Positions 7,638-39,133 of a stretch of DNA of 64,000 bases are shown here, one piece after another. The first letter of the stretch is position 1; every line of letters starts with the position of its first letter. The position numbers were made by a program, and so were the translations under genes. Below the pieces are notes generated by a model, which saw only the letters and a program-made list of their open reading frames with translations, had not been told where the DNA came from and did not search any database. This DNA comes from Kaistia geumhonensis (lineage in GTDB: Bacteria > Pseudomonadota > Alphaproteobacteria > Rhizobiales > Kaistiaceae): contig NZ_JAUSWJ010000001.1 in the NCBI RefSeq assembly GCF_030815145.1, forward strand, positions 2,232,001 to 2,296,000. Direction: 5' to 3'.

Positions 7638-7712
7638 GGAAACGCGGCGACCTCGGGAACTGGTCCAACTCTTGCTTGCCTGTCCCTTTTGGTAGCGCAA
7701 GCCGCGTCGTCA

Positions 7713-8537
7713 TCAAAGCGTAAATTGCTCTCCAAGGTAAAGACGGCGGACGTCCGGGCTCGCCACGATGTCGCTGGGCCGCCCTTCCATCAGCACCTCA
7801 CCCGAATGGATGATATAGGCGCGGTCGATCAGCCCGAGCGTTTCCCGGACATTGTGGTCGGTGATCAGCACGCCGATTCCGCGCGCGGTCAGGTGACGGA
7901 CGAGCGCCTGGATGTCGCCGACCGCGATCGGGTCGATGCCGGCGAAGGGCTCGTCGAGCAGCATGAAGGCCGGCCGGCTCGCCAGCGCGCGGGCGATCTC
8001 GCAGCGTCGACGCTCGCCGCCCGACAGGGCGATGGCCGGCGACTTGCGCAGATGCGCGATGCGGAACTCGTCGAGGAGCGAATCGAGCTCTTCCTCGCGG
8101 CGGCGGCGGTCGGGCTCGACCACCTCCAGCACGGCGCGGATGTTCTGCTCCACCGTGAGTCCCCGGAAGATCGACGTCTCCTGGGGCAGATAGCCGACGC
8201 CGAGCCGCGCGCGGCGATACATCGGCAGATGCGTGACGTCGTGCCCGTCGAGTTCGATCGTGCCCTGATCGGCCTGAACAAGGCCGGTGATCATGTAGAA
8301 GATCGTCGTCTTGCCGGCGCCGTTCGGTCCGAGCAGACCGACCGACTCGCCCCGCGCCACCGCGAGGCTCGCGGAATGGACGACGCGGCGGCGGCGATAG
8401 CTCTTGCCGAGGCCCCGTGCGATCAGCCAGCCGGGCCCTCCGGCATTCTCGGCGAAACGCGTGACCGGGCGATGCTCGGCGATAGCCTCGCCATAGGCAT
8501 CCTGTTCGGCCTGCCGGCCGCGTTCTCTGTCAGCCAC
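7713..8537 (-). CDS. lptB: LPS export ABC transporter ATPase LptB
   Basis: Cytoplasmic ATPase of the Lpt bridge that extracts lipopolysaccharide from the inner membrane. In the 274-residue form Walker A (GPNGAGKTT) is at about 70-78. The ABC signature LSGGERRRCEIARAL, Walker B FMLLDEPFAGID and the H-loop LITDHNVRE follow. No ATG exists before the Walker A region except far upstream inside lptA. I chose the GTG at 8537 (MADRERG), which leaves a short gap after lptA; an alkaline-residue-poor N-terminal tail of about 35 residues precedes the domain, as in other rhizobial LptB. The exact start is uncertain. Confidence 0.93.
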   Translation of the reverse strand: MADRERGRQAEQDAYGEAIAEHRPVTRFAENAGGPGWLIARGLGKSYRRRRVVHSASLAVARGESVGLLGPNGAGKTTIFYMITGLVQADQGTIELDGHDVTHLPMYRRARLGVGYLPQETSIFRGLTVEQNIRAVLEVVEPDRRRREEELDSLLDEFRIAHLRKSPAIALSGGERRRCEIARALASRPAFMLLDEPFAGIDPIAVGDIQALVRHLTARGIGVLITDHNVRETLGLIDRAYIIHSGEVLMEGRPSDIVASPDVRRLYLGEQFTL

Positions 8538-24421: not shown

Positions 24422-25105
24422 TCACTCCACCAGTTCGACCGGGCGACGGCCGCGCACCCGCTTGTTCAGATGCGTCATGAAGGCCATGGCGAAGAGCGGC
24501 GTCAACAGATTGACGATCGGGATGGCGAGGAAAAGCGCGATCACGAAGCCGCCGAGAAGGACCGTTCCGGCATTCTCCCGGCGCAGCGCCCGCGCCTGCT
24601 GTACGCCTCCGAAACGCGCCGCCGCCGCCTCGAAGAACTCGCGGCCGAGCAGATAGCCGTTGCCGATGAAGAAGGCGACGAGGTTGACGCCCGGCACCAG
24701 CAGCAGCACGAGGCAGACGACGTTGACGAGCACGGCCGTCGCCGCGAAGCCGATGGCCCCGAGCGCGCTTTCGGTCACCGTCAGCCCTGTGCCGGGCGGA
24801 TCGAACGGATAGTGCCGCCGCTCGACGATGGCGGCGATGTCGTCCGAGAAGAGGCCGGCCATCAGCGCCGAGACCGGCGCGACGAGGAAGGCGAGGCCGA
24901 TGACGAAGCCGAAGCCCGAGACGATCGCGACCGAGGTTCCGATCCAGGCGTGATCCGGCCAGTCGGCGAAATGAACCACCGCCGCCTGCAGGCCGAGCCA
25001 GAGCAGGACGAGGAGGAGCAAAGTCAGCCCCAGCACCTTCAGAAGCACGGCGCGGAAGGGGCGTGTCGGCAGGTCGGAAAGAGCGAGCCAGGCGGCGGCG
25101 AGCAT
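24422..25105 (-). CDS. EI24/CysZ-like membrane protein
   Basis: Protein of 227 residues with four or five long hydrophobic segments and the family core GVNLVAFFIGNGYLLGREFFE near residue 150. CysZ proteins carry sulfate across the inner membrane in some bacteria, but this wider EI24 family is often annotated without proof, so sulfate uptake is only a suggestion. I chose ATG 25105 (MLAAAWLALSDLPT); the frame stays open far upstream, but there it is Arg/Asp-rich antisense sequence of the adenosine kinase gene. It is followed by the DUF2214 gene. Confidence 0.78.
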   Translation of the reverse strand: MLAAAWLALSDLPTRPFRAVLLKVLGLTLLLLVLLWLGLQAAVVHFADWPDHAWIGTSVAIVSGFGFVIGLAFLVAPVSALMAGLFSDDIAAIVERRHYPFDPPGTGLTVTESALGAIGFAATAVLVNVVCLVLLLVPGVNLVAFFIGNGYLLGREFFEAAAARFGGVQQARALRRENAGTVLLGGFVIALFLAIPIVNLLTPLFAMAFMTHLNKRVRGRRPVELVE

Positions 25106-25270
25106 CGTGCGAAAGGCGTCCTTCTCGGTGTTCGGCGGCCTGCGGCAGATGGGCACGGCGGGGGCGGGCCGCAAGCCGGACCGACGGTTGCACGGCAAAG
25201 CGCCGCCTGTATAGTCCGCAACCGACCCCGCCGGCCCTCCGGCTCCCGCCCTCTCCGGATCAGTTCTCGA

Positions 25271-26275
25271 ATGACGCAAGCCAGCTACGACGTTCTCGGC
25301 ATCGGCAATGCGATCGTCGATATCCTGGCGCGGGCGGAGGACGATTTCCTCGTCGAGCAGAAGCTGACCAAGGGCTCGATGCGGCTCGTGGACATGGAGG
25401 AATCGGCGCGGCTCTATGCCGCCATGGGTCCGGCGATCGAGGCGTCGGGCGGCTCGGCCGGCAACACCGTGGCGGGCATCGCCTCGCTCGCGGGCCGCTG
25501 CTCCTATGTCGGCAAGGTCGCGGACGACCAGCTCGGCGCCGTCTACCGCCACGACATGCGCGCCATCGGCGCCCGCTACGATGTCGCGCCGCTGCCGCCG
25601 GGCACGCTGCCGACCGCGCGCTCGATGATCTTCATCACGCCGGATGGCGAGCGCACGATGAACACCTATCTCGGCGCGTGCCACCGACTCGGCCCCGAGG
25701 ATATCGACGAGGCGCTCGTCGCCGACACCAGGATCACCTATTTCGAGGGCTTCCTCTGGGATGCGCCGAGCGCCCGCGATGCCTTCTACAAGGCGGCGTC
25801 GGTCGCGCACCGCTCCGGCCGCAAGGTGTCGCTCACGCTGTCCGACGCCTTCTGCGTCGATCGCTTCCGGGGCGATTTCACGCGGCTGCTCAAGGACGGG
25901 ACGATCGACATCCTGTTCGCCAACGAGGCCGAGCTCAAATCCTTCTACCAGACGTCGAGCTTCGGGGCGGCGCTCGATGCGCTGCGCGCCGAATGCCGGG
26001 TCGCGGCGGTCACCGTCGGCGCCGAAGGCTCCTTCGTCGTCACGCCCGACCAGGTGGTCCAGGTTCCGGCGACGCGGGTCGAGCAGGTCGTGGACACCAC
26101 AGGCGCCGGCGATCTCTACGCATCGGGCTTCCTCTATGGCGTCGCGCGCGGCTTTGCGCTCACCGAAGCGGCGGCGCTCGGCTCGCTGGTCGCGGCGGAA
26201 GTGATCACCCATATCGGCCCGCGCCCGGCGGTCTCGCTGGTCGATCTCGCCCGCCAGCACGGTTATCCCCTGTGA
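25271..26275 (+). CDS. Adenosine kinase (PfkB family)
   Basis: Ribokinase-family kinase of 334 residues. It starts YDVLGIGNAIVDILA. The substrate-binding SGGSAGNTVAGIASL lies near residue 60, and the PfkB signature 2 DTTGAGDLYASGFLYG near residue 277 provides the catalytic Asp. The sequence fits the proteobacterial adenosine kinase subgroup, which makes AMP from adenosine for purine salvage. It starts 165 bases from the divergent EI24/CysZ-like gene and ends 64 bases before the tRNA-Leu gene. Confidence 0.85.
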   Translation: MTQASYDVLGIGNAIVDILARAEDDFLVEQKLTKGSMRLVDMEESARLYAAMGPAIEASGGSAGNTVAGIASLAGRCSYVGKVADDQLGAVYRHDMRAIGARYDVAPLPPGTLPTARSMIFITPDGERTMNTYLGACHRLGPEDIDEALVADTRITYFEGFLWDAPSARDAFYKAASVAHRSGRKVSLTLSDAFCVDRFRGDFTRLLKDGTIDILFANEAELKSFYQTSSFGAALDALRAECRVAAVTVGAEGSFVVTPDQVVQVPATRVEQVVDTTGAGDLYASGFLYGVARGFALTEAAALGSLVAAEVITHIGPRPAVSLVDLARQHGYPL

Positions 26276-26300
26276 CGGCAGGGTGTCGTCGCCATGACGA

Positions 26301-26329
26301 TTGACAAGCCCGGGCCGCGCCCTTAATCA
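26301..26329 (+). promoter_or_regulatory. Promoter of tRNA-Leu
   Basis: A consensus -35 TTGACA (26301-26306), 17-base spacer and -10 TAATCA (26324-26329), ending 10 bases before the mature tRNA. Confidence 0.75.
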
Positions 26330-26339
26330 ACGCGGCCAA

Positions 26340-26424
26340 GCCCAGATGGCGGAATTGGTAGACGCGCTGGTTTCAGGTACCAGTGACGCAAGTCGTGGAG
26401 GTTCGAGTCCTCTTCTGGGCACCA
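26340..26424 (+). tRNA. tRNA-Leu (anticodon CAG)
   Basis: Class II tRNA of 85 bases including an encoded CCA end. The acceptor stem GCCCAGA (26340-26346) pairs with TCTGGGC (26414-26420), followed by A-CCA. The anticodon stem CTGGT/ACCAG holds the loop TTCAGGT with anticodon CAG at 26374-26376, decoding CUG. A long variable arm (TGACGCAAGTCGTG) and the TTCGAGTCC T-loop are present. A strong terminator follows, so it is transcribed alone. Confidence 0.97.
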
Positions 26425-26467
26425 GCCATTCTCTAGAGTCCTGATTTCGATCGGGATTCGGGTTCAG

Positions 26468-26500
26468 CGCCCGCACCTTGAAAGAGGTGCGGGCGTTTTC
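26468..26500 (+). terminator. Rho-independent terminator after tRNA-Leu
   Basis: Perfect 11-base stem CGCCCGCACCT (26468-26478) / AGGTGCGGGCG (26485-26495), six-base loop, then TTTTC. Confidence 0.93.
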
Positions 26501-26705
26501 GTTTCCGGGGCCTGCCGGCCGCGGCGGGGGATTGCGTGTCGTCGGACGCGCCTTTCGCCGCGATGCCGTTTGCCAGGCGACGCGGACGCCCCGGACTTCG
26601 GCCTCCTTGCCGCGCGGCCATCGAAAGAGCAGGTGCCTCCCGCCGCGGCAGCGGCTAGCATGATCGCCGACAGCCGCGCCGTTGCGCGGCCTTGGGAAGG
26701 ACGAC

Positions 26706-28361
26706 ATGTCGGAAAGCACCGTGAATCCGCTGGCCGGGAAGCCGGTTCCCCAGACACTTCTTGCCAATATCCCGCGCCTGATGACGGCCTATTTCGCGCT
26801 GACGCCGGATCCTTCCGTGCCGACGCAGCGCGTCTCGTTCGGCACCTCCGGCCATCGCGGCTCGGCCTATGCCGCCGGATTCAACGAGGCGCATATCCTC
26901 GCGATCACGCAGGCGGTCTGCCTCTATCGCAAGAGCGCCGGAATCACCGGGCCCCTCTTCCTCGGCATGGACACGCATGCGCTCTCCGAAGCCGCGCTGA
27001 CGAGCGCCATCGAGGTCCTCGCCGCGAACGGCGTCGAGACCTTCATCGACGAGCATGGCGGGTACACCCCGACGCCCGTCATCTCGCATGCGATCCTCAC
27101 CTATAATCGCGGCCGCAGCGAAGGCCTCGCCGACGGCATCGTCATCAGCCCCTCGCACAATCCGCCCGACGAAGGTGGCTTCAAGTACAATCCCACCAAT
27201 GGCGGGCCGGCCGATGTCGACGTCACCGGCTGGATCGGCAAGGCGGCCAACGACTTCCTGGCCGCGAAGCTCGATGGCGTGCAGCGCATGCCCTATGCCC
27301 GGGCCCGCAAGGCCGCCTGCATCCATCCCTATGATTTCGTGACGCCCTATGTGGCGGACCTCGCCAATGTCGTCGACATGGACGCCATCCGCGCCTCGGG
27401 CGTCCGGATCGGCATCGATCCGCTCGGCGGCGCCGCCGTCCGCTACTGGCAGCCGACGATCGAGCGCTACGGCATCGCGGCGACCGTCGTGAACGACGTC
27501 GTCGACCCGACCTTCCGCTTCATGACCGCCGACTGGGACGGCAAGATCCGCATGGACTGCTCGTCGCCCTATGCGATGGCGCCGCTGATCGATCTGCGCG
27601 ACCGGTTCGACGTCGCCTTCGCCAACGATACCGACGCAGACCGGCACGGCATCGTGACGCCGACCGGCGGGCTCATGAATCCCAACGCCTTCCTCGCCGC
27701 CGCCGTCGCCTATCTCTGCGGCAACCGGCCCGCGTGGAGCCCGGCGAGCGGGATCGGCAAGACCATCGTCTCCAGCAGCATGATCGACCGCGTCGCCGCC
27801 AAGATGGGCCGCCGGCTCGTCGAGGTGCCGGTCGGCTTCAAATGGTTCAGCAAGGGCCTGATCGACGGCTCGCTCGCCTTCGGCGGCGAGGAGAGCGCCG
27901 GCGCATCCTTCCTGCGCCGCGACGGCTCCGTCTGGACCACGGACAAGGACGGCATCATCATGGGCCTGCTCGCCGCCGAGATCACGGCGCGGACCGGGCA
28001 GGATCCCAGTCAGTTCTATGCCTCGACGACCGCCGATCTCGGCCAGTCCTTCTATGCGCGCATCGACGCGCCGGCCACGACCGCCCAGAAGGCCGTTCTC
28101 GCCAGGCTCGATCCCTCCAGGGTCGAGGCGGGCGAACTCGCGGGATCGCCGATCGAAGCGAAGCTCGCCCGCGCGCCGGGCAACAACGAGCCGATCGGCG
28201 GCCTCAAGGTCGCGACCGCCAAGGGCTGGTTCGCCGCCCGGCCCTCGGGAACCGAGGAGGTCTACAAGATCTACGCCGAGAGCTTCGTCAGCGCGGATCA
28301 TCTGAAGGAAATCCAGGCGGACGCGCAGGCGCTCGTCTCGCGGGTGTTCGAGGCGGCCTGA
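26706..28361 (+). CDS. pgm: Phosphoglucomutase (alpha-D-glucose phosphate specific)
   Basis: Enzyme of 551 residues interconverting glucose 1- and 6-phosphate, supplying glycogen, glucan and LPS precursors. The catalytic phosphoserine is in ISPSHNPPDEGGFKYNP near residue 150. The metal-binding loop is NDTDADRHG, the sugar-binding loop GGEESAGASF, and the phosphate-binding loop ARPSGTEEVYKIY is near the C-terminus. The length fits the E. coli Pgm type (about 546). The ATG at 26706 follows a GGGAAGG site. The 205 bases between the upstream terminator and this gene hold no recognisable element. Confidence 0.95.
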   Translation: MSESTVNPLAGKPVPQTLLANIPRLMTAYFALTPDPSVPTQRVSFGTSGHRGSAYAAGFNEAHILAITQAVCLYRKSAGITGPLFLGMDTHALSEAALTSAIEVLAANGVETFIDEHGGYTPTPVISHAILTYNRGRSEGLADGIVISPSHNPPDEGGFKYNPTNGGPADVDVTGWIGKAANDFLAAKLDGVQRMPYARARKAACIHPYDFVTPYVADLANVVDMDAIRASGVRIGIDPLGGAAVRYWQPTIERYGIAATVVNDVVDPTFRFMTADWDGKIRMDCSSPYAMAPLIDLRDRFDVAFANDTDADRHGIVTPTGGLMNPNAFLAAAVAYLCGNRPAWSPASGIGKTIVSSSMIDRVAAKMGRRLVEVPVGFKWFSKGLIDGSLAFGGEESAGASFLRRDGSVWTTDKDGIIMGLLAAEITARTGQDPSQFYASTTADLGQSFYARIDAPATTAQKAVLARLDPSRVEAGELAGSPIEAKLARAPGNNEPIGGLKVATAKGWFAARPSGTEEVYKIYAESFVSADHLKEIQADAQALVSRVFEAA

Positions 28362-28411
28362 TCCTCGCGGCGTCCGCCGTTCAGAGCCGCCTCCGCGAAG
28401 GAGCACGCCCG

Positions 28412-29320
28412 ATGCTGCATGCGCGCATGCTGCGCTATCTGGACGAGGTCGCCCGATGCGGTTCGATCCGCAAGGCGGCGGCCAAGCTCAACGTCGCCTC
28501 CTCGGCGGTGAACCGGCAGATCATCGCGCTGGAGGAAGAGCTCGGCACGCCGCTTTTCGAGCGGCTGTCGCACGGGCTGCGCCTGACGGCGGCGGGCGAG
28601 ATCATGATCGCCCACATCCGCAAGACGCTGAAGGACTATCAGTGGAGCTCGGAGCGGATCGACCGGCTTCGCGACCACCACTTCCCCTCGGCCTCGATCG
28701 CGACGGTCGGGGGGCTCGCCTGCGACCTGCTCGCCAAGGCGCTGATGCAGCTGCGGGCCGAGCGGCCGTTTACGCGCCTCTTCGTCAGCGTCATGGACGC
28801 CGAGGACATCATGGGCCTGGTGGCGGCCGGCGATTTCGATCTCGGCTTCGCCTTCGACCTGCCGGATTTCGGCGGCGTGACCCGCGCCGCCTCGCTCCGC
28901 ACGCGCTACGGCGCCGTGATGGTGCCGAACCATCCGCTGGCACGCGAGAGCGCCGTTCGCGTGAGCGCGCTGCGCGACTATCCGCTCATCGCGCCGCATG
29001 TCGGCGTGCTGATCCGCGACCAGTTCGACGATGCCTGCCACCGGAACGACATCCATATCGATCCGGTCGTCGAATCCGACTCCTTCGAGTTCCTCCGCCA
29101 GTTCGCACTCTCGAACAATGGCGTCGCGCTGCTCAACGAGCTCGATGTCGACGACAGCCTGCGCAAGGGAACGCTCGTCTTCATCCCGATCGTCGAGCTG
29201 AAGGGCAAGACACAGACCATCTCGGTCGTGCACCGGACGCGCGGGGCGCTGGAGCCGCTGCCGGGCCTCGTCGTCGAGCGGCTGTCGCTGCTGCTCGACG
29301 AGCGACGAGGCAGCGGCTGA
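28412..29320 (+). CDS. LysR family transcriptional regulator
   Basis: Regulator of 302 residues. A winged HTH lies at about 1-65 (CGSIRKAAAKLNVASSAVNRQI), with a C-terminal effector-binding domain of the PBP2 type. It is on the same strand as, and 109 bases ahead of, the ECF transporter operon, unlike the usual divergent LysR layout. It starts 50 bases after pgm behind a GAAGGAG site. Control of the ECF/NTF2/flavoprotein operon is the natural guess; no LysR box (T-N11-A) was clearly recognised. Confidence 0.88.
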   Translation: MLHARMLRYLDEVARCGSIRKAAAKLNVASSAVNRQIIALEEELGTPLFERLSHGLRLTAAGEIMIAHIRKTLKDYQWSSERIDRLRDHHFPSASIATVGGLACDLLAKALMQLRAERPFTRLFVSVMDAEDIMGLVAAGDFDLGFAFDLPDFGGVTRAASLRTRYGAVMVPNHPLARESAVRVSALRDYPLIAPHVGVLIRDQFDDACHRNDIHIDPVVESDSFEFLRQFALSNNGVALLNELDVDDSLRKGTLVFIPIVELKGKTQTISVVHRTRGALEPLPGLVVERLSLLLDERRGSG

Positions 29321-29429
29321 TGCCTTTTGGGTCCAGGGCCGCGCTCGAAACGATGCTTTGAGAACGGCGGCCGTGCGCGCACCATTCCTCCGACGGCAAA
29401 AAGCCGCGGCGGGGAACCAGGGTGCGAAC

Positions 29430-30206
29430 ATGGCTTTCGAGACGGAGCAACCACGGGTCATCAAGGTATCGGGCGGTGTGTCGATCGGCGGTGCGCCGGT
29501 CTCCTACACCGCCTTCATGGCGGCGCTCGTCGCCATTCTGGCATTCGTTCCGGCCTCGATCGTGGTCGGCGGCATGGGCGGCGGCTGGCCGCTGCACGAC
29601 GTGGTGCATCCCCTGCTCGGCCTCCTGCTGGGGCCGATCGCAGGGCCGATCGCCTCGGCCATCGGCATCCTGATCGGCGGCGTCATCGCGCCCTATACCA
29701 ATCTCGGCCCCTGGGCGCCGCTGATGGGCGCCATGAGCGCCTTCGCGGTCGGCATGGTCATGCAGCCGAACCGGTCGCTCTGGCTGGTGCCGTGGATCAT
29801 CACGCTCGCCGCCAACCTCATCTATCTCTGGCAGGCGATCTCCTTCGGCATCAGCTTCCCGCTCTGGCTCAGCAATGTCATCACCATCGACATCGCGCTG
29901 ATCCTGATCGCCATTCCGCAGCTCAGGAACTGGAGCATCGACCGGATCCGCACCGGCGGCATCGGGCTCAAGACCTATATCGGCTTCTTCGTCGTGTTCT
30001 TCTTCGGCTCGACGGCGGGCATCCAGCTCAACTGGGTCCCGTCCTTCGCGACCAATCCCTGGCCGGCGGAAGTCTGGCCGGTGCTGATCCCGATCATCGC
30101 GATCGAGCGCCTCGCCTTCAGCGCCGTGGGCGCCCTGATCGGCGTCGGCGTCGTCAGCGCGCTGCGCCGCTCGCCTCTCGCCAAGGCGACCATGGCGGGC
30201 TACTGA
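29430..30206 (+). CDS. ECF-type transporter substrate-binding (S-like) membrane component
   Basis: Integral membrane protein of 258 residues with about six hydrophobic segments, rich in Gly/Ala/Pro (HPLLGLLLGPIAGPIASAIG, GVIAPYTNLGPWAPLMGAM). Its place directly before a double-ATPase gene and an EcfT gene marks it as the substrate-capture component of an energy-coupling-factor importer. The arrangement (S, fused ATPase, T) is that of ykoEDC, which imports a thiamine precursor in Bacillus, but I see no TPP riboswitch. The substrate is unknown. The start gives MAFETEQPRV after a long Arg-rich non-homologous stretch. Confidence 0.7.
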   Translation: MAFETEQPRVIKVSGGVSIGGAPVSYTAFMAALVAILAFVPASIVVGGMGGGWPLHDVVHPLLGLLLGPIAGPIASAIGILIGGVIAPYTNLGPWAPLMGAMSAFAVGMVMQPNRSLWLVPWIITLAANLIYLWQAISFGISFPLWLSNVITIDIALILIAIPQLRNWSIDRIRTGGIGLKTYIGFFVVFFFGSTAGIQLNWVPSFATNPWPAEVWPVLIPIIAIERLAFSAVGALIGVGVVSALRRSPLAKATMAGY

Positions 30207-30208
30207 GC

Positions 30209-31978
30209 ATGGCGGCCGAGGACGGTCAGACGACGGACGGGCGGCCCGGGCCGCTCGTCACCTTCGAGCGTGTCGGCTATGCCTATCCCGGCGCGACGCG
30301 CCGGGCGCTCGACGGGCTCGACATGACGATCGCGCGCGGCGAGTTCGTCGGCATCGTCGGCGCGACGGGGGCAGGCAAGTCGACGCTCTGCCTGACGCTC
30401 AACGGCATCGTTCCCCAGTTCTTCGGCGGCTCCTTCTTCGGAACGGTCAGGATCGCCGGCAGCGACACGCTGGAGACGCCGACGAGCCGGCTGGCCGCGA
30501 CCGTCGGCATGGTGTTCGAAGACCCCGAGACGCAGATCACGGCGACCACCGTCGAGGGCGAGGTCGCCTTCGCGCTCGAAAATCTCAAGGTTCCGACGGC
30601 GTTGATGCAGGTCCGCGTCGCCGAGGCGCTCAAGGCGGTCGGCCTCGCCGGACTCGAGCGGAAGCATCCCGCCCGCCTTTCCGGCGGACAGAAACAGCGG
30701 CTCGCCATCGCCTCGGCGCTGGCGCTCTCGCCCGATTGCATCGTGCTCGACGAGCCGACCTCGCAGCTCGATCCGGTCGGCACGGCCGAGGTCTTCGCGC
30801 TGCTCTCCCGCCTCAACCGCGAGCGCGGCATCACGATCATCGTGGCGAGCCATGCGAGCGAGGAACTCGCGGCGGCGGCGACGCGCATCCTGCTGCTTTC
30901 GGGTGGGCGCATCGTCCGCGACGGCAGCCCGCGCGCGGTTCTCGGCGACGTCGCGCTGCTCAAGGCGCATGACGTGCGGCCGCCCGACATCGCCCAGGCC
31001 TTCGCGGCGGTCGCGTCGCGGCTCATGCCGGGGACGCCGCCGCTCGCCCCGATCACGCTCGGCGAGGCGCCCGGCGCCTTCGCGCCTTTCGCTCCTGCCT
31101 TCGCCGCGGCGGCGCTCCCGCCCGCCGACCGGTCGTCCCCCTCCGGCGCGCCGGTTCTGGAGGCGGTCGGCGTCTCGCATGTCTATCCGGACGGAACCGC
31201 GGCGCTGAGGGGCGTCGACCTCTCCATCCGGCGCGGCGAGTTCGTCGCGCTGGGCGGCCGCAACGGCTGCGGCAAGTCCACGCTGATCCGCCACTTCCTG
31301 CACCTGCTCTCTCCGACCGGCGGCACCGTGCGGGTTGACGGCAGCGACGTCGCGGGCCTGAAGATCAGCGATCTCGCGCGGCGCATCGGCTATGTCGCGC
31401 AGAACGCGCACCAGCAGCTCTTCTGCGACAGCGTCCGCGAGGAAGTGGCCTTCGCGCTGACGCTCATGAAGCGCCCGAAAGGCGAGATCGACGCCGCCGT
31501 CCATTTCGCGCTGGAGGCGATGCGCCTTTCCGATCTCGCCGACCGCCATCCAGCCTCGCTCAGCCGCGGCGACCGGCTGCGCCTCGCGATCGCCGCGACG
31601 CTCGCGCCAGGGCCGGACATGCTGATCTTCGACGAGCCGACCACCGGGCAGGACTGGGCGGGCGCGCTCGCCATCCTCGACATCTGCCGCAGCCTGAACG
31701 CGATCGGCAAGACCGTGCTGCTCGTCACGCATCACCTCTACCTGCTCGCCGGCTACGCCGAACGCCTCGTGGTGATGGCGCAGGGCCGCGTCGTGCTCGA
31801 CGGGCCGCTCGACGAGGTTCTCTATTCCGGTCCCGCCCTCGCCGCGGCCTCGCTCGCGCCGCCGCAGACGGTCAGCTTCGCGGCGGGGCTCGAGGGCTTT
31901 GCCGCCGGCGGGATGCGGCCGCTCTCGCCCGCCGCCCTCGCCGCGCTGGTGGAATCCGTTGCCGGAGGCATCCGATGA
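30209..31978 (+). CDS. ECF transporter double ATPase (fused EcfA-type)
   Basis: Protein of 589 residues with two ABC ATPase domains. The first has Walker A GATGAGKSTL (about residue 51), signature LSGGQKQRLAIASAL and Walker B DCIVLDEPTSQLD. The second has Walker A GGRNGCGKSTL (about 351), signature LSRGDRLRLAIAATL and Walker B DMLIFDEPTTGQD. An Ala/Pro-rich linker of about 60 residues joins them. The second signature is degenerate (LSRGD), so only one of the two ATP sites may be fully canonical. It starts two bases after the S-component stop and overlaps the T-component by four bases. Confidence 0.88.
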   Translation: MAAEDGQTTDGRPGPLVTFERVGYAYPGATRRALDGLDMTIARGEFVGIVGATGAGKSTLCLTLNGIVPQFFGGSFFGTVRIAGSDTLETPTSRLAATVGMVFEDPETQITATTVEGEVAFALENLKVPTALMQVRVAEALKAVGLAGLERKHPARLSGGQKQRLAIASALALSPDCIVLDEPTSQLDPVGTAEVFALLSRLNRERGITIIVASHASEELAAAATRILLLSGGRIVRDGSPRAVLGDVALLKAHDVRPPDIAQAFAAVASRLMPGTPPLAPITLGEAPGAFAPFAPAFAAAALPPADRSSPSGAPVLEAVGVSHVYPDGTAALRGVDLSIRRGEFVALGGRNGCGKSTLIRHFLHLLSPTGGTVRVDGSDVAGLKISDLARRIGYVAQNAHQQLFCDSVREEVAFALTLMKRPKGEIDAAVHFALEAMRLSDLADRHPASLSRGDRLRLAIAATLAPGPDMLIFDEPTTGQDWAGALAILDICRSLNAIGKTVLLVTHHLYLLAGYAERLVVMAQGRVVLDGPLDEVLYSGPALAAASLAPPQTVSFAAGLEGFAAGGMRPLSPAALAALVESVAGGIR

Positions 31979-32802
31979 CCGCCGCCGACAGCATCGTCCA
32001 GCTTCCGGCCGGCCGCTTCGCGGCCATCGATTTCCGCGTCAAGCTCGTCCTGCTCCTCCTCGCCAGCACGCTCATCTTCGTCTGGAACAATCTCCTCGCG
32101 CAGGGGCTGCTGCTCGGCTTCACCATCGCCCTGATGCTCGCCGCCGCGACGCCTCTTGCGACGATCTGGCGCCTCATCCGCCTCACGCTGCCGGCGCTCG
32201 TCCTCATCGTCGTGATCCAGGGGCTGTGGAGCCCGTTCGGGATCCATCCGGTCTTCACGCTGCCGCAAGGGCTGCCGCTGCTCGGCGGCGCGCATGTCTT
32301 CACCGTCGAGGGGCTGTTGTTCGGCCTTGTCGTCTGCTGCCGCATCCTCGTGCCGCTGCTCGCCTTCCAGCTCGTCTTCATGACGACGGAGGCGAACGAC
32401 ATCGTGCTCGGGCTCACGCGGCTGCGCGTGCCCTACCGCGTGGCGCTGCTCTTCTCGACCACCTTCCGCTTCGTGCCGCTGCTGCTCGAGGAGTTCCAGG
32501 CGATCAAGGATGCGCAGCGGCTGCGCGGCATCGATCTCGACAGCTTCGGCATGGTCAGGAAGCTCGTCGCCATGGGGCGCATGCTGGTGCCGCTGATCAC
32601 CGGCTGCCTCGCCAAGGCGCAGGCGATGGAGATTGCGCTGCAGGCCCGCGCCTTCACCGGCTCGCCCGACCGGACCCAGCTTCATCCCGGCCGCGAGAAG
32701 CTGACGGCGGCCCAGCGGGCGATGATCGCGCTTGCGCTTCTCTTCTGGGCCGCCGCGATCGTGGCCCGCATCGCATTTGGAATGGGAGGATCGGTTCTTT
32801 GA
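31975..32802 (+). CDS. ECF transporter transmembrane component EcfT
   Basis: Membrane scaffold of 275 residues with about five hydrophobic segments. It couples ATP hydrolysis to the S component. The cytoplasmic coupling helices with AQRLRGIDLDS and LQARAFTGSPDR carry the Arg-containing X-R-X motifs of EcfT proteins. It overlaps the ATPase gene (ATGA) and the next gene (TTGA), so production of all subunits is linked. Confidence 0.88.
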   Translation: MTAADSIVQLPAGRFAAIDFRVKLVLLLLASTLIFVWNNLLAQGLLLGFTIALMLAAATPLATIWRLIRLTLPALVLIVVIQGLWSPFGIHPVFTLPQGLPLLGGAHVFTVEGLLFGLVVCCRILVPLLAFQLVFMTTEANDIVLGLTRLRVPYRVALLFSTTFRFVPLLLEEFQAIKDAQRLRGIDLDSFGMVRKLVAMGRMLVPLITGCLAKAQAMEIALQARAFTGSPDRTQLHPGREKLTAAQRAMIALALLFWAAAIVARIAFGMGGSVL

Positions 32803-33245
32803 CCGGGAAGGACTTTAACGACGAGGCCACGCTGCGCGCCATGCTGGAGCGCCAGGCCGACGCCTGGAAGACGGGCGATTTCACCCTCGCGAGCGACGAC
32901 TGGCACCCGAACGGGGTGCTCACGGCGCCGGGCAATCGCGTGCCCTTCGACGCGCTCGCCGGGACGATCCGGCGCTTTCATGACGATTTCGTGGATCTCG
33001 AGGTGACGATCACCAACGCCTTCGCCTCGCCCGACGGGACGAAGATCGCCTTCGAATGGCTGTGGACCGTTTCGCGGCGCAGCGACGGGGCGCGCAGCGC
33101 CACCCCGGACGCGATCATCGTCGATCTCGAGGATGGCAAGATCCTCGAATGGCGCGAGTATTTCGATACTGCCGCCGCCGTCGAGGACTATCACGGCAAG
33201 GAGACCGGCAACGAGGGCACGCCCGGAGGCGACGCAGCGCCGTGA
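32799..33245 (+). CDS. SnoaL/NTF2-like protein
   Basis: Cytoplasmic protein of 148 residues with an NTF2-like cone fold: a helical start (ATLRAMLERQADAWKTGDF) and beta strands ending IIVDLEDGKILEWREYFD, a SnoaL-type signature. Such proteins bind small hydrophobic compounds or act as isomerases or hydrolases. The only good start is TTG 32799, overlapping the EcfT stop, with GGGAGGA eight bases ahead. Being coupled to an importer suggests it acts on the imported compound. Confidence 0.75.
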   Translation: MTGKDFNDEATLRAMLERQADAWKTGDFTLASDDWHPNGVLTAPGNRVPFDALAGTIRRFHDDFVDLEVTITNAFASPDGTKIAFEWLWTVSRRSDGARSATPDAIIVDLEDGKILEWREYFDTAAAVEDYHGKETGNEGTPGGDAAP

Positions 33246-33835
33246 ATGTCCTCGTCGTCTATTGCCATCCGTCGAGCGGCAGCTTCACGGCGGCCGTCCG
33301 CGACACCGTGATCGCCGCGCTCGGCGAGGCCGGGCACGCCTTTGCCGAGATCGATCTCTATGGCGAGGGCTTCAATCCGGTGATGAGCGCCGAGGAGCGC
33401 GCGGGCTATCACGACGAGACGACCAATCTCGCGCCCTTCGCCGAGCATGCCCGTCTGCTGCGCTGGGCGGAGACGGTCGTCTTCGTCTATCCGACCTGGT
33501 GGTATGGGCCGCCGGCGATGCTCAAAGGCTGGCTGGAGCGCGTGATGGTGCCGGGCTTCGCGTTCAAGATGCCGACGAAGCATCGGGGCTCGCGGCCCAA
33601 TCTCACCAATATCCGCCGCCTGCTCGTGTTCACCACCTGCGGCGCGACGCCCTTCGTCAGCTGGATCATGGGCCAGCCGGGCCGCAAGACTCTGCTGCGC
33701 GGCTTCCGGTCGGTCTGCCATGTCCGCTGCCGCACCGGCTTCATGGCGCTCTACAAGATGGACAGCGTCAGCGAAGAGGCAAGGCGCCGCCACCTCGCCC
33801 GCGTCCGGCGCACCGTGCTCGCGCTCCGATCCTGA
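33242..33835 (+). CDS. Flavodoxin-like NAD(P)H:quinone oxidoreductase family protein
   Basis: Protein of 197 residues of the NQO1/KefF-like flavodoxin-fold family. FMN/FAD phosphate binding is at YCHPSSGSFTAAV (about 7-19), and the flavin loop is YPTWWYGPPAMLKGWLERV. The GTG start at 33242 overlaps the stop of the NTF2-like gene (GTGA). It probably reduces a quinone or aromatic compound, so together with the preceding genes it suggests uptake and reduction of a ring compound, by inference. A bulged hairpin follows (33837-33862). Confidence 0.8.
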   Translation: MNVLVVYCHPSSGSFTAAVRDTVIAALGEAGHAFAEIDLYGEGFNPVMSAEERAGYHDETTNLAPFAEHARLLRWAETVVFVYPTWWYGPPAMLKGWLERVMVPGFAFKMPTKHRGSRPNLTNIRRLLVFTTCGATPFVSWIMGQPGRKTLLRGFRSVCHVRCRTGFMALYKMDSVSEEARRRHLARVRRTVLALRS

Positions 33836-33836
33836 T

Positions 33837-33862
33837 CGAGGGGGCGGCCTCCCCGCCCCTCG
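33837..33862 (+). terminator. Hairpin ending the ECF operon
   Basis: CGAGGGG at 33837-33843 can pair with CCCCTCG near 33857-33862 with a further G/C stem inside; no T-run follows. The 198 bases from here to the cupin gene show no clear element. Confidence 0.4.
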
Positions 33863-34060
33863 TCCCGCGCAGCCCTCCGCCAGCGGCGCGGCTGAAAAGC
33901 GTCAACGCTGCCTGCAAGGGTCGCAGCCTCTCCCCGCCCGACATGGCCAATCGATTTGAACGCGATCCACCGGGAGGCTAAGACAAGGCCGGGAGGACCG
34001 GCGGGAGCGGAGGCGTCCGCCGGCCGGTCGAGATATCCGCCGCGACGGAGGAGGGAGCGA

Positions 34061-34588
34061 ATGCCGCTCGAACATGCGGACGAGAATCCGCGCATTCCCT
34101 ATCAGTATCCGAACCCGCCCGATGCGCTTGCGGAGATCGTGATCCCGAAGGCGATTCCGGAGGACGACCGGCTTTGGGTGCCGCAGGCCGACAATGTCTG
34201 GTTCCGGCCGCTCTGCCTCAACCGCTCGCAGGGCTACTGGATGAACCTCCTGAAGGTCCGGAAGGCCGGCGTGCTGTCGCGACACCGCCATCCGCAGTCG
34301 GTGCACGGCTTCGTGCTGAAGGGCCGCTGGCACTATCTCGAGCATGACTGGATGGCCGAGGAAGGCAGCTACGTCTTCGAGCCGCCGGGCGAGACGCACA
34401 CGCTCGTGGTGCCGGAGGGCGTCGAGGAAATGATCACCTATTTCCAGGTCAACGGCATCATGTACTACGTCGACCCGTGGGGGAGGCCGCTCGGCTACGA
34501 GGACGTCTTCACCAAGATCGACATGTGCCGCCGCCATTTCGCGGATGTCGGCCTCGGCGCGGATTTCGCCGACCAGTTCATCCGCTGA
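34061..34588 (+). CDS. Cupin-domain protein (2,4'-dihydroxyacetophenone dioxygenase-like)
   Basis: Protein of 175 residues. The cupin metal site is visible as RHRHPQSVHGFVLKG (first motif, near residue 71) and PPGETHTLVVPEG (second motif). The whole resembles the 2,4'-dihydroxyacetophenone dioxygenase/acetylacetone-cleaving group, which use iron to cut carbon-carbon bonds. The start follows a GGAGGAGGGAGCG site. The next gene, an SDR, follows after 40 bases, so they form a two-gene unit that may degrade an aromatic or diketone. Confidence 0.72.
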   Translation: MPLEHADENPRIPYQYPNPPDALAEIVIPKAIPEDDRLWVPQADNVWFRPLCLNRSQGYWMNLLKVRKAGVLSRHRHPQSVHGFVLKGRWHYLEHDWMAEEGSYVFEPPGETHTLVVPEGVEEMITYFQVNGIMYYVDPWGRPLGYEDVFTKIDMCRRHFADVGLGADFADQFIR

Positions 34589-34628
34589 CGGCCTCCCGCC
34601 GCCCTCCACCCGAAAGACAGGTCAACGC

Positions 34629-35360
34629 ATGGGCTTCTGGCCAACGGACTGCTTCGCCGGCAGACGGATCCTCGTCGTCGGCGGCACGTCGGGGATCGGC
34701 GCAGCCATCGCCGACGCCTTCCTCGCCGAGCGTGCCGAGGTCGTCGTCACCGGCGCGACCGAAGGCGAGGTCGCGGCCGTTCCGCCGCGCGCGGGCCTCT
34801 CGGCGCGGCGGCTCGACATCCGCGACGGCGAGGCGGTGAAGGCCTTCGTCGGCGGCCTCGGCTGGCTGGATCACCTCGTGAACTGCGCCGGGGTCATCCG
34901 ACGCGGCGAGGAGCTGGATCCGGAGGTCTTTGCCGCCGTCATCGACATCAACCTGACCGGTGCGATGCGCGTCGCGGCGGCGGCGCGGCCGCTGCTCGCC
35001 GAGGCGAAGGGCACGATCACCAACACGGCATCGATGCTCGCCTTTTTCGGCGGCGGCCTCGTGCCAGGCTATGCCGCCTCCAAGGGCGGCATTGCGCAGA
35101 TGACCAAGTCGCTCGCCATCGCCTATGCCGGGGACGGCATCCGCGTCAACGCGATCGCGCCCGGCTGGATCGCGACGCCGCTGACCAAGGCGCTGCGAGA
35201 CGACCCGCAGCGGAGCGAGGCGATCCTCTCCCGCACCGCGCTGAAGCGCTGGGGCGAGCCGGCCGACCTCGCTGGCGGCGTCCTCTACCTCGCCTCGCCC
35301 ATCGCCTCCTACGTCACCGGAACGGTGCTGGTCATCGACGGCGGCTACATGGCCGTCTGA
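34629..35360 (+). CDS. Short-chain dehydrogenase/reductase
   Basis: Classical SDR of 243 residues. The cofactor motif GGTSGIGAAIA is near residue 18, followed by NCAG and the catalytic YAASK with an upstream Ser (TASMLAFF). The family end VLVIDGGYMA is present. It is the second gene of a pair with the cupin. It converges on SURF1 with a 35-base gap. Confidence 0.88.
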   Translation: MGFWPTDCFAGRRILVVGGTSGIGAAIADAFLAERAEVVVTGATEGEVAAVPPRAGLSARRLDIRDGEAVKAFVGGLGWLDHLVNCAGVIRRGEELDPEVFAAVIDINLTGAMRVAAAARPLLAEAKGTITNTASMLAFFGGGLVPGYAASKGGIAQMTKSLAIAYAGDGIRVNAIAPGWIATPLTKALRDDPQRSEAILSRTALKRWGEPADLAGGVLYLASPIASYVTGTVLVIDGGYMAV

Positions 35361-35395
35361 CGGCCGGGCGTCTCTTCTTTGCTCCCGCCGCCCCG

Positions 35396-36106
35396 TCAGC
35401 CGAACCGCCGCAACCGCACCAGCAGCGCCAGGGACATGACGGCCAGGGCCGCCCAGGTCAGCACATAGACGAGGTGGTTGTTGGCGAAGCGCACGACCGT
35501 GAGGCCCGTGACCGGGCCGTCCGGCTCGGGCGGGGTGACCTCGAAGGCGTCGACGAAATAGGGCGCGACATTGGCGAGGCCCGCCGCGCTGGCCATCGCC
35601 GCGACGTCGCGCGAGTACCAGCGCCCGGCTGCCGGATCGTTGCTGCGCAGGAAACCGCCGCCGGGCTCGGTCATGCGAAGGAGGCCGGTCACGGTGACCG
35701 GACCCCGCGGCGCGTGCGCGGCCTCGGGCGGAAGTGCCGGCACGAAGCCGCGATTGACATAGACCGTGAAGCCGGCGTCCGTTTCCAGCGGCGCCAGCAG
35801 CCAGTAGCCCGGCCCGCGCTCCGTCACTGCCTTCACCGGGGTTCCGGGATAGGCCAGATAGCGACCCGTCACGTGAACGCGGCGATATTCGTCGCCGGAG
35901 CGAGTGATCGACGGCCAGGCCGCGGGCGGCGGCGGGGCGACGGGTTCGGCATGGATGCGCGCCTCGACGCGCGCGATGAGGGCGAGCTTCTCCGACCGCC
36001 GCTCGACCTGCCAGACCGCGAGGCCGGCGAAGACCAGCGTCGCGACGAGGAGGAAGAGCGCCAGCGCGCGCCGCCTGCCCCGCCCCGCAGCCGGCGCCTC
36101 GCTCAC
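35396..36106 (-). CDS. SURF1 family cytochrome oxidase assembly protein
   Basis: Protein of 236 residues with one N-terminal and one C-terminal transmembrane helix (ALALFLLVATLVFAGLAVWQ and the end LVYVLTWAALAVMSLALLV), between which lies the SURF1 periplasmic domain with VHVTGRYL and VYVNRGFVPA. SURF1 helps insert heme a or build heme-copper oxidases. It is the last gene of the cyo operon, overlapping cyoD by four bases. Confidence 0.9.
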   Translation of the reverse strand: MSEAPAAGRGRRRALALFLLVATLVFAGLAVWQVERRSEKLALIARVEARIHAEPVAPPPPAAWPSITRSGDEYRRVHVTGRYLAYPGTPVKAVTERGPGYWLLAPLETDAGFTVYVNRGFVPALPPEAAHAPRGPVTVTGLLRMTEPGGGFLRSNDPAAGRWYSRDVAAMASAAGLANVAPYFVDAFEVTPPEPDGPVTGLTVVRFANNHLVYVLTWAALAVMSLALLVRLRRFG

Positions 36107-36489
36107 GGCATCTGGCTCATGTCGTGGCCGGGCATCATGTTGACGTTGAGATGGTACATGACCCAGAGCGAGCCCGTCAGCGCGATCACCACGATGATGA
36201 TCGTGAAGATGAGCGCCAGCATCGTCCAGCCACCCTCCGAACGGGCGTTCATATGGAGGAAGAACACCATATGGACGACGATCTGCACGATGGCGAAGCC
36301 GAGCACGACGATGGCCGTCGCCGTCGGGCTGGCGAAGACGCCGCCCATGACCAGCCAGAACGGGATCGCGGTCAGGACGACCGAGAGCAGGAAGCCGATC
36401 ACATAGCCCTTGAGCGAGCCATGCGGCTCGCTCTCGTCATGATGGGCATGCGGCGCGTCGGCGGCCGCGGCGTGGACGTCGGTGCTCAT
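36103..36489 (-). CDS. cyoD: Cytochrome bo3 quinol oxidase subunit IV
   Basis: Membrane subunit of 128 residues with three transmembrane helices and a His-rich N-terminus (HAHHDESEPHG). Conserved GYVIGFLLSVVLTAIPFW and VVHMVFFLHMN stretches match CyoD, which stabilises the CuB site region. It overlaps cyoC by four bases and SURF1 by four bases. Confidence 0.93.
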   Translation of the reverse strand: MSTDVHAAAADAPHAHHDESEPHGSLKGYVIGFLLSVVLTAIPFWLVMGGVFASPTATAIVVLGFAIVQIVVHMVFFLHMNARSEGGWTMLALIFTIIIVVIALTGSLWVMYHLNVNMMPGHDMSQMP

Positions 36490-37118
36490 CGCAGCATTCC
36501 CAGGAGATAGACGACGGTGAAAACGCCGATCCAGATCACGTCGAGGAAGTGCCAGAACAGCGAGAGGCACATCAGCCGGCGGCGATTGGCGGCGACGAGG
36601 CCGTAGCGGCCGAGCTGGACCATCAGCGTCACCAGCCAGACGAGGCCGAAGGTGACGTGCAGGCCATGCGTGCCGACCAGCGTGAAGAAGGCGGAGAGGA
36701 AGGCGCTGCGCTGCGGCGTCGCGCCCTCGGCGATCATGTGGTGGAACTCGTAGAGCTCGATCGAGAGGAAGGCGAGGCCGAACAGCGCCGTCACCGCGAG
36801 CCACAGCTGCGTCGGTCGCACCTGGCCCCGCGCCATGGCCAGCATCGCGAAGCCATAGGTGATCGAGGAAAAGAGCAGCATGGCCGTGTTGAGGGCGACC
36901 AGCGGCAGGTCGAACAGATCCTTCGGCGAGGGCCCGGCCGCGAAATTGCCGCCGAGCACGCCATAGGCGGCGAACAGCATCGCGAAGATGAGACAGTCGC
37001 TCATCAGATAGACCCAGAAGCCGAGCATCGTGCTGCCGCCCTCGGCATGCGCATGTTCGTCCTCGAGGTGGAACACGGGCGCCTCGCCCGCTGTCGTGGC
37101 GGTCGCGATGCTGGTCAT
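36486..37118 (-). CDS. cyoC: Cytochrome bo3 quinol oxidase subunit III
   Basis: Membrane subunit of 210 residues with five helices, of the COX3 family. Conserved [38 protein letters not shown] and the end [20 protein letters not shown] are visible. It overlaps cyoB (ATGA) and cyoD. Confidence 0.95.
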
Positions 37119-39133
37119 GCCCGGGCTCCCTCGGCGATCAGCCGCGTGCGGGCCGCCTCGGTGCGCGCGACCTCCTCGGCCGGAATGTCGAAGGACTGGT
37201 GGTAATCGAAGGTGTGCGCGATCGCGACGGCGAGGATCGCGATGAAGCTCAGCACGGCCAGCCACCAGATATACCAGACGAGACCGAAGCCGAGCGCCAC
37301 CGAGAGCGCGGCGAGGATGACGCCGGTCGGCGTGTTCTTCGGCATGTGAATCGGCTTGAAGCCGGCGAGCGGCCGGCGATAGCCGCGCTCCTTCATGTCC
37401 CACCAGGCGTCGTTGTCATGCACCACCGGCGTGAAGGCGAAGTTGTAGGCCGGCGGCGGCGAGGCGGTCGCCCATTCCAGCGTGCGCGCGTTCCAGGGAT
37501 CGCCGGTCGTGTCGCGCAGCTGATCGCGGCGGAGGATGCTGACGCCGATCTGGATCAGGAAGGCGAGGATGCCAAGCGCGATCAGGAAGGCGCCGAAGCC
37601 CGCGATCACGAACCAGATCTGCAGCGAGGGATCGTCGAAGACGCGCATGCGCCGGGTGACGCCCATGAGGCCGAGCAGATAGAGCGGCATGAAGGCGGCG
37701 TAGAAGCCGGTGACCCAGAACCAGAAGGACAGCTTGCCCCAGAACGGATCGAGCTTGAAGCCGAAGGCCTTGGGGAACCAGAAGCTGATGCCGGCGAAGA
37801 GGCCGAACAGCACGCCGCCGATGATCACGTTGTGGAAATGGGCGACGAGGAAGAGCGAGTTGTGCAGCACGAAATCGGCCGGCGGCACGGCGAGCAGCAC
37901 GCCGGTCATGCCGCCGATCACGAAGGTCAGCATGAAGGCGAGCGTCCACATCATCGGCAGCTCGAAGCGGATGCGGCCGCGATACATCGTGAACAGCCAG
38001 TTGAACATCTTCGCTCCCGTAGGGATCGAGATGATCATGGTCGTGATGCCGAAGAAGGAATTGACGCTGGCGCCCGAGCCCATCGTGAAGAAATGGTGCA
38101 GCCAGACGAGATAGGACAGCACGGTGATGACCACCGTCGCGTAGACCATCGACGTATAGCCGAAAAGCCGCTTGCCCGAGAAGGTCGACGTGACCTCGGA
38201 GAAGATGCCGAAGGCGGGCAGGATCAGAATATAGACTTCCGGATGGCCCCAGATCCAGATGAGGTTCACATACATCATCGGATTGCCGCCGAAGTCGTTC
38301 GTGAAGAAGTTGGTGCCGACATAGCGGTCGAGCGCCAGCATCGCGAGAACGGCGGTGAGGACGGGGAAGGCGGCGACGATCAGGACATTGGTGCAGAGCG
38401 AGGTCCAGGTGAAGACCGGCAGGCGCATCATGGTCATGCCCGGCGCGCGCATCTTCACGATGGTGCAGAGGAGGTTGATGCCGGAGAGCGTCGTCCCGAC
38501 GCCGGCTATCTGCAGGCCCCAGATGTAGTAGTCGACGCCGACATCGGGACTGTAGGTGATGCCCGAGAGCGGCGGATAGGCGAGCCAGCCGGTCTTGGCG
38601 AACTCGCCGACGAACAGCGACATCATCACGAGGACGGCGCCGCCGACCGTCATCCAGAAGCTGAAATTGTTCAGGAACGGGAAGGAGACGTCGCGGGCGC
38701 CGATCTGCAACGGCACGACGAAGTTCATGATTCCGGTGACGAGCGGCATCGCCACGAAGAAGATCATGATCACGCCATGTGCCGTGAACACCTGGTCGTA
38801 GTGATGCGCCGGCAGGTAGCCCTCGGAGCCGCCGAAGGCCATGGCCTGCTGCAGCCGCATCATGACGGCGTCGGCGAAGCCGCGCAGCAGCATGACGATG
38901 CCGAGCACCATATACATGATGCCGATCTTCTTGTGGTCGACCGAGGTGAACCACTCGCGCCACAGATAGCCCCAGAGGCGGAACCATGTGATGGCGCCGA
39001 CCAGCGCGATGCCGCCCGTCGCCACCACGGCGAAGGTGGCGACGAGGATCGGCTCGTGGAAGGGCAGCGCGCTCCAGGTGAGGCGGCCGAACAGGAAGCT
39101 CGTGGCGGCGGGGACGGCGGATGGATCGGTCAT
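37115..39133 (-). CDS. cyoB: Cytochrome bo3 quinol oxidase subunit I
   Basis: Catalytic heme-copper subunit of 672 residues with about 15 helices. It binds heme b, the heme o3-CuB centre and ubiquinol, reduces O2 and pumps protons. The CuB ligand motif [15 protein letters not shown] and the following HHFFTMG are clear, and [13 protein letters not shown] holds the heme ligands. It starts 14 bases after cyoA and overlaps cyoC by four bases. Confidence 0.97.

Follow-up and report, generated by a model that had tools for sequence, protein, structure and literature searches.

A 64,000-nucleotide stretch of the Kaistia geumhonensis genome (contig NZ_JAUSWJ010000001.1, positions 2,232,001 to 2,296,000; hereafter the window) carries a cassette of six genes. 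They encode a LysR-type regulator, the S component, double ATPase (AA') and T component of an energy-coupling factor (ECF) importer, a SnoaL/NTF2-like protein, and an NQO-type reductase. That the cassette is real and conserved as a unit is well supported. Our best reading, to which we give a probability of about 0.45, is that, controlled by an AtzR-type regulator, a dedicated ECF importer takes up a nucleobase-like N-heterocycle and two further proteins process it. This substrate class is suggested by two different genes, those for LysR and NQO, which point the same way. The candidates, proposed tentatively and through guilt by association, are an oxidised or amino purine, a pyrimidine, or a hydroxy-s-triazine-like compound.

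A conserved six-gene unit

The features of the cassette, in window coordinates, are as follows.

28412..29320, + strand: LysR-type regulator of the AtzR-like subfamily, with LysR_substrate and HTH_1 domains; adjoins S in 8/8 related loci and falls in a clade with AtzR
29321..29361, + strand: putative LysR operator of two boxes, conserved in cassette loci
29430..30206, + strand: ECF S component, the substrate-binding membrane protein; ATG start; partial PF07155 match, as in 9/9 members
30209..31978, + strand: double ECF ATPase (AA'); ATG start after a 2-base gap from S; two ABC_tran domains; TIGR04520
31975..32802, + strand: ECF T component; ATG start, 4-base overlap with AA'; PF02361 (CbiQ)
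32799..33245, + strand: SnoaL/NTF2-like protein; TTG start, 4-base overlap with T; PF12680 (SnoaL_2)
33242..33835, + strand: NQO-type flavodoxin-fold NAD(P)H oxidoreductase; GTG start, 4-base overlap with the NTF2-like gene; PF02525 (Flavodoxin_2)

An earlier note on this DNA had described the five genes from S to the NQO-like gene at 29430-33835. Their families, the 2-base gap, the 4-base overlaps (three in number) and the TTG and GTG starts are all as it described; the genes merely overlap and are not "translationally fused". The true unit comprises six genes, since the LysR gene and the two-box element also belong to it. The note had missed both, as well as the kinship of the LysR and NQO proteins with proteins of nucleobase and s-triazine clusters. 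S, A, A' and T are encoded together, as in group I ECF transporters, and family assignment of the cassette proteins identified no exporter gene among the six.

A search of genome contigs with S yielded eight related loci, and the order LysR, S, AA', T, NTF2, NQO is the same in all eight, which is more than chance would give. The linkage of the importer to the NTF2-like and NQO-like proteins, which the note had put forward, thus holds: the two genes that it considered might prove absent from close relatives are present in every locus. In the four close loci (L002-L005), identity to the window over BLAST segments is 84-97% for LysR, 93-97% for S, 81-93% for AA', 80-91% for T, 75-88% for NTF2 and 79-93% for NQO. 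In the Mesorhizobium loci L006-L009, the corresponding values are 56-58%, 76%, 61-63%, 63-65%, 65-69% and 65%. From these ranges, conservation across both groups is highest for S and lowest for LysR. The four intact Mesorhizobium loci have lost part of the gene overlaps (distances of -4 to +59 bases) and retain order and content; genes in the relatives' loci were called with a simple codon-based script and their starts are approximate. A ninth relative (L030, genome G727) keeps AA', T, NTF2 and NQO; LysR is missing there and its S matches only from about residue 107-113 on.

S is present in 5/14 Kaistia genomes and 0/47 others in a 61-genome sample of relatives, and in 5/146 Mesorhizobium-group genomes, one copy being truncated. 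These frequencies indicate that the cassette is accessory, having apparently either moved horizontally or been lost often. In the order sample (297 genomes), the four strong S matches are all from Kaistia, while 1/385 class genomes and 1/398 phylum genomes carry S, each time the window's own. No S match was found on plasmids at E<=1e-5; the plasmid matches of T are all under 60% identity, and the few listed ones that were read were uninformative. According to a by-eye reading of translations, the surroundings of the cassette vary among most loci; the neighbours in L002 are those of the window, and L006 and L008 have upstream neighbours in common. Several of the compared loci share synteny by descent. 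We found no description of the six-gene make-up in the literature covered, mainly openly accessible papers, including PMC11109136.

Genomes G001 and G005 carry loci recorded as Kaistia soli and Kaistia hirudinis, the same genus as the window. The L002 and L005 records are named Bosea (a metagenome-assembled genome) and Mesorhizobium sp. BR1-1-16; their loci are identical to those of the Kaistia-genus genomes G013 and G007, so both records are probably misnamed. Elsewhere in the order, S gave six weak matches (E 0.003-0.09); the four that were fetched resemble AzlC/AzlD-type permeases by eye and were not taken as homologues, and the other two come from G609 and G618. Directly downstream of the cassette, the window encodes a ChrR-type cupin (34061-34588) and a short-chain dehydrogenase/reductase (34605-35360). 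These were rejected as cassette parts, as they adjoin it only in the window and in one of the eight other loci (L002).

The regulator groups with AtzR

In a LysR tree from which L008, L104 and L123 were left out, a clade of 29 rows (support 95/83) unites eight cassette rows, AtzR, 19 other relatives and one control, L124. By this grouping, in a clade that also holds a control, the cassette protein is predicted to be an AtzR-type LysR; it is not the specific sister of AtzR, with which it shares 38.6% identity. The reference is the LysR encoded beside atzD on pADP-1; the record itself says only LysR, and the name AtzR follows from PMC6834077. AtzR responds to cyanuric acid, and AtzT, of AtzR's operon, binds guanine with a dissociation constant of about 110 nM (PMC6834077).

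In most cases, related LysR genes have nucleobase or s-triazine genes as neighbours. We hand-picked 14 plasmid loci from the listed matches (180 records at E<=1e-40). Twelve adjoin cytosine deaminase, creatininase, cyanuric-acid, HpxZ or orotate/dihydroorotate genes; the other two (L115, L121) adjoin only an adenine-deaminase-like amidohydrolase, at 26-28%. Eight genome loci represent all non-cassette matches of the genome search: three (L099, L100, L105) lie clearly beside nucleobase, creatininase, orotate or s-triazine genes and four (L101, L103, L104, L106) beside NMT1- or BMP-type ATP-binding cassette (ABC) transporters only. None of eight distant-LysR controls, hand-picked from 24 rows, is clearly beside genes of these classes. 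Among these controls, L127 has xanthine-dehydrogenase-family subunits 3.4 kb off, L129 has a gene annotated as NAD(P)H-dependent oxidoreductase, and L130 has a BMP-family ABC transporter that belongs to an arabinose cluster.

The reductase is related to NQO proteins of a deaminase cluster

The NQO-like protein matches PF02525 with 118.6 bits, and a profile search of the PDB returned NQO1, NQO2 and 3lcm. The Flavodoxin_2 domain and this kinship predict an NQO-type enzyme. Matches at E<=1e-30 occur in 70/199 genomes of the order, from which we hand-picked 20 loci of the group that we call NQOb. Fifteen encode an NMT1-type binding protein, a permease, a PRK07583 cytosine deaminase and an FAD_binding_4 oxidase, and 11 of these 15 a second NQO (NQOa). 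In L087 and L088, an 8-oxoguanine deaminase lies 3.5 kb off (assigned by NCBIfam for L087 and by similarity for L088). L093 has an adenine deaminase next door to NQOb, L097 only the FAD oxidase, and L091, at a contig edge, only NQOa and NQOb. Overall, 8-oxoguanine deaminase relatives are found in 6/20 NQOb regions (three genome families), and a purine nucleoside phosphorylase with a cytidine deaminase and a nucleoside-type permease in 2/20.

In the NQO tree, which contains two duplicate row pairs (L081, L092), the 10 cassette rows form a group (90/99) that is joined to three NQOb loci with support 84/94. The 15 NQOa rows stand apart in a clade of their own (89/100), and the other NQOb rows are poorly resolved. 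A non-cassette NQOb is present in 14/14 Kaistia genomes. At E<=1e-55, two cassette-bearing Mesorhizobium genomes (G693, G694) have both a cassette and a non-cassette NQO and three (G692, G695, G727) the cassette copy only; besides these five, 5/6 other genomes have a non-cassette NQOb.

The NMT1-type cluster is itself widespread and uncharacterised (L079 2841-9509, at 3.34 Mb in the window genome; L080; L107-L111). It encodes the NMT1 binding protein, an ATPase, a permease, the PRK07583 cytosine deaminase, the FAD oxidase, NQOa and NQOb, with Rid and creatininase genes often near. The full cluster was seen in Kaistia G000, G001, G004 and G012 and in Mesorhizobium G693, G694 and G700.

A two-box element between the LysR and S genes

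The intergenic element consists of box 1, TGCCTTTTnGG, and box 2, GATGCTTTGA, which starts exactly 31 bp after it. The pair is exact in the window and in 6/8 other cassette loci; around the boxes, the Kaistia and Mesorhizobium sequences have otherwise diverged. L002 has one altered base in box 2, and L006 an enlarged LysR-S gap of 828 bp (7173-8000) that contains an antitoxin-like small reading frame (by eye) and is without box 1. In the window the pair is found a single time, whereas 100 shuffles gave none, and no copy was detected outside cassettes in 1.4 Mb of fetched loci. By itself, box 2 was found in L107 and in L116 (one occurrence each), and L005 has a second copy of it. In L007-L009, box 1 forms the dyad TGCC-N5-GGCA, and such dyads are the type of site expected for LysR proteins. 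We infer that LysR binds this putative operator.

An Rfam scan of window positions 25000-38000 gave a tRNA as the sole match above gathering score. A full-length molybdenum cofactor (Moco) riboswitch match at 29260-29385 overlaps the end of the LysR gene; it scores 23.3 bits against a cut-off of 36, was not found in the four close relatives searched (4/4), and was judged a chance match. No riboswitch for flavin mononucleotide (FMN), thiamine pyrophosphate (TPP) or another ligand was thus detected at the operon in the window or in these four relatives, in agreement with the earlier note.

The importer and the NTF2-like protein

PF07155 (ECF-ribofla_trS) is a broad model. All nine S members match it, the window protein with 28.1 bits (cut-off 26.7) and over residues 24-113 only. 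S had no match among PDB sequences at E<=1 or in NCBIfam at E<=0.01, and a structure model built from nine close sequences was unusable, with a predicted local distance difference test score (pLDDT) of 41.7. With this partial match and no FMN riboswitch match at the operon, S does not qualify as a RibU protein, and the description of the importer as "vitamin-type" in the earlier note is not borne out. AA' scores 413 bits with TIGR04520 (cut-off 315) and has two Walker A, two signature and two Walker B motifs. T matches PF02361 (112.8 bits) and falls below the cut-off of the cobalt-specific TIGR02454 (70.7 versus 111.8).

The window genome, a single contig of 4.59 Mb, encodes four T components, including that of the window. 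The T genes at L036 and L037 adjoin, one a CbiM-like and the other a BioY-like protein (named by eye). At L038 (7460-9874, ~0.41 Mb), a T-A-A ECF module lies in a catabolic-looking region. About 29 kb from it, at L039 (6207-7859, ~0.44 Mb), a lone S follows a nucleoside-hydrolase-like gene (by eye); its nearest model is CD3073, at 133.9 bits and under the cut-off of 180. The module and the lone S may work together. The window T is closest to the L038 T (z 16.6 versus 9.7 and 10.7), and the first ATPase half is also closest to L038 (z 61.7 and 43.9 versus 35.9 and 35.7), in weak agreement with a nucleoside theme. Comparisons of the window S with the L039 S and with BioY gave 5-6% in hhalign, and pairwise comparisons of the window S with the S proteins elsewhere in this genome, CbiM included, gave z of 0.3-2.5.

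The NTF2-like protein matches PF12680 with 42.7 bits. Its model (pLDDT 78.8) matches SnoaL-like, limonene-epoxide-hydrolase and isomerase folds, so that domain and predicted fold both place it in the broad SnoaL/NTF2-like superfamily. AtzH, an enzyme of the cyanuric acid pathway, has an NTF2 fold (PMC6219798). A relationship to AtzH/HpxZ (DUF3225) was not supported, with an hhalign probability of 0.1% from shallow profiles and no such Pfam match. Outside the cassette, no relatives were found at E<=1e-8 in 199 genomes of the order or at E<=1e-5 on plasmids.

Function of the cassette

In the pathway that we propose, the AtzR-like LysR would bind the two-box element and activate the operon when the heterocycle or its product is present. 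S would bind the compound, and the dedicated S-AA'-T complex, judging from its protein families, would import it with ATP. Conversion of the compound, in either order, would then fall to the NTF2-fold protein and the flavoenzyme NQO, whose translation is probably coupled with that of the transporter. We propose that NQO reduces the imported compound, passing electrons from NAD(P)H to it or to a quinoid intermediate, while the NTF2-like protein might bind, isomerise or hydrolyse it. The product would enter host pathways, possibly that of the separate NMT1-ABC/cytosine-deaminase/FAD-oxidase/NQOa-NQOb cluster of Kaistia. That a cyclic compound is taken up and altered by redox chemistry, close to what the earlier note suggested, is compatible with this scheme.

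Several observations weigh against a nucleobase-like substrate. A check with ten marker proteins detected no nucleobase gene next to the 10 cassette copies. S itself does not reveal the ligand, given its partial PF07155 match, the lack of a PDB match and the model pLDDT of 41.7. Both LysR proteins and flavodoxin-type reductases form large families; the loci compared were hand-picked and partly of common descent. One close LysR relative (L102) adjoins a TRAP transporter (by eye), and a control with an aromatic dioxygenase as neighbour (L124) groups within the AtzR-like clade. The ultrafast support joining the cassette NQO to NQOb loci is 84, and the NMT1 cluster, the nearest NQO context, is itself uncharacterised as to substrate. 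Finally, hhalign detected no kinship of the NTF2-like protein with AtzH/HpxZ.

A fuller version of the proposal, in which the cassette is a portable nucleobase-catabolic ECF system with a purine-, pyrimidine- or triazine-like cargo, an AtzR-type regulator and its own NTF2-fold and flavoenzyme step, appears possible but rather doubtful. Such a cargo would, to our knowledge, lie outside the vitamins, metals and queuosine precursors carried by ECF transporters.

Most known cargo of ECF importers consists of vitamins and metals, and RibY is an NMT1-like protein. A vitamin- or flavin-like substrate, such as riboflavin, lumichrome or a thiamine fragment, imported and then modified by the two additional proteins, would agree with the match of all nine S proteins to a model named after the riboflavin S component, and flavins are bound by RibY, which serves a different riboflavin transporter as its binding protein (PMC4418817). 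However, this match exceeds the cut-off by only 1.4 bits over residues 24-113, the operon lacks an FMN, TPP or other riboswitch in the window and four relatives, the cassette is accessory in its distribution, and the relatives of LysR and NQO point elsewhere. We regard such a substrate as unlikely. The import and reduction of a quinone-like or other aromatic ring is improbable to a similar degree. An NQO1/NQO2-type reductase, the SnoaL/limonene-epoxide-hydrolase-like fold of the NTF2-like protein and the dioxygenase beside the LysR gene of L124 would all suit it, whereas most close relatives of LysR and NQO sit with deaminases and nucleobase-type ABC transporters, and no ring-cleavage genes were recognised by eye beside the cassettes. 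Least likely is defence against, or scavenging of, a toxic or man-made heterocycle (a nucleobase analogue or herbicide-like triazine): the patchy distribution at differing sites, the decayed copy in G727 and the use of AtzT, a purine-binding protein, for triazine (PMC6834077) are compatible with it, but active import is an odd opening step for detoxification and the six-gene unit has no exporter.

If the nucleobase-like reading is correct, a conserved ECF unit linked to the regulation and enzymology of nucleobases and s-triazines would widen the known cargo of these transporters. The cassette would also offer a compact, testable pathway with two processing proteins, one operator and one S component, and would help to assign the widespread uncharacterised NMT1/cytosine-deaminase/FAD-oxidase/NQO cluster of Rhizobiales.

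Comparison with known systems

Like group I ECF transporters with dedicated S-AA'-T operons, the cassette encodes S, a double ATPase and T in one operon. YkoEDC is an example of this group with a double ATPase and the same gene order. The cassette differs by its LysR control, by the NTF2-like and NQO-like genes in the operon and by an S that matches no known substrate class in NCBIfam or among PDB sequences.

The AtzR-regulated cyanuric acid system of Pseudomonas sp. ADP (atzDGEHF, atzRSTUVW) resembles the cassette in its AtzR-type LysR, in an importer placed under LysR and in an NTF2-fold protein within the pathway (PMC6834077, PMC6219798). However, its importer is a BMP-type ABC transporter and that of the cassette an ECF transporter, its enzymes are amidohydrolases and that of the cassette a reductase, and the two NTF2 proteins are not detectably related.

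The NMT1-ABC/cytosine deaminase/FAD oxidase/NQOa-NQOb cluster of Rhizobiales relies on an NMT1-type ABC importer instead of an ECF transporter, and the cassette has no counterpart of its deaminase, FAD oxidase, Rid and creatininase genes. Nevertheless, its NQOb group includes the nearest relatives of the cassette NQO, and some of its copies, like the cassette, hold an AtzR-like LysR.

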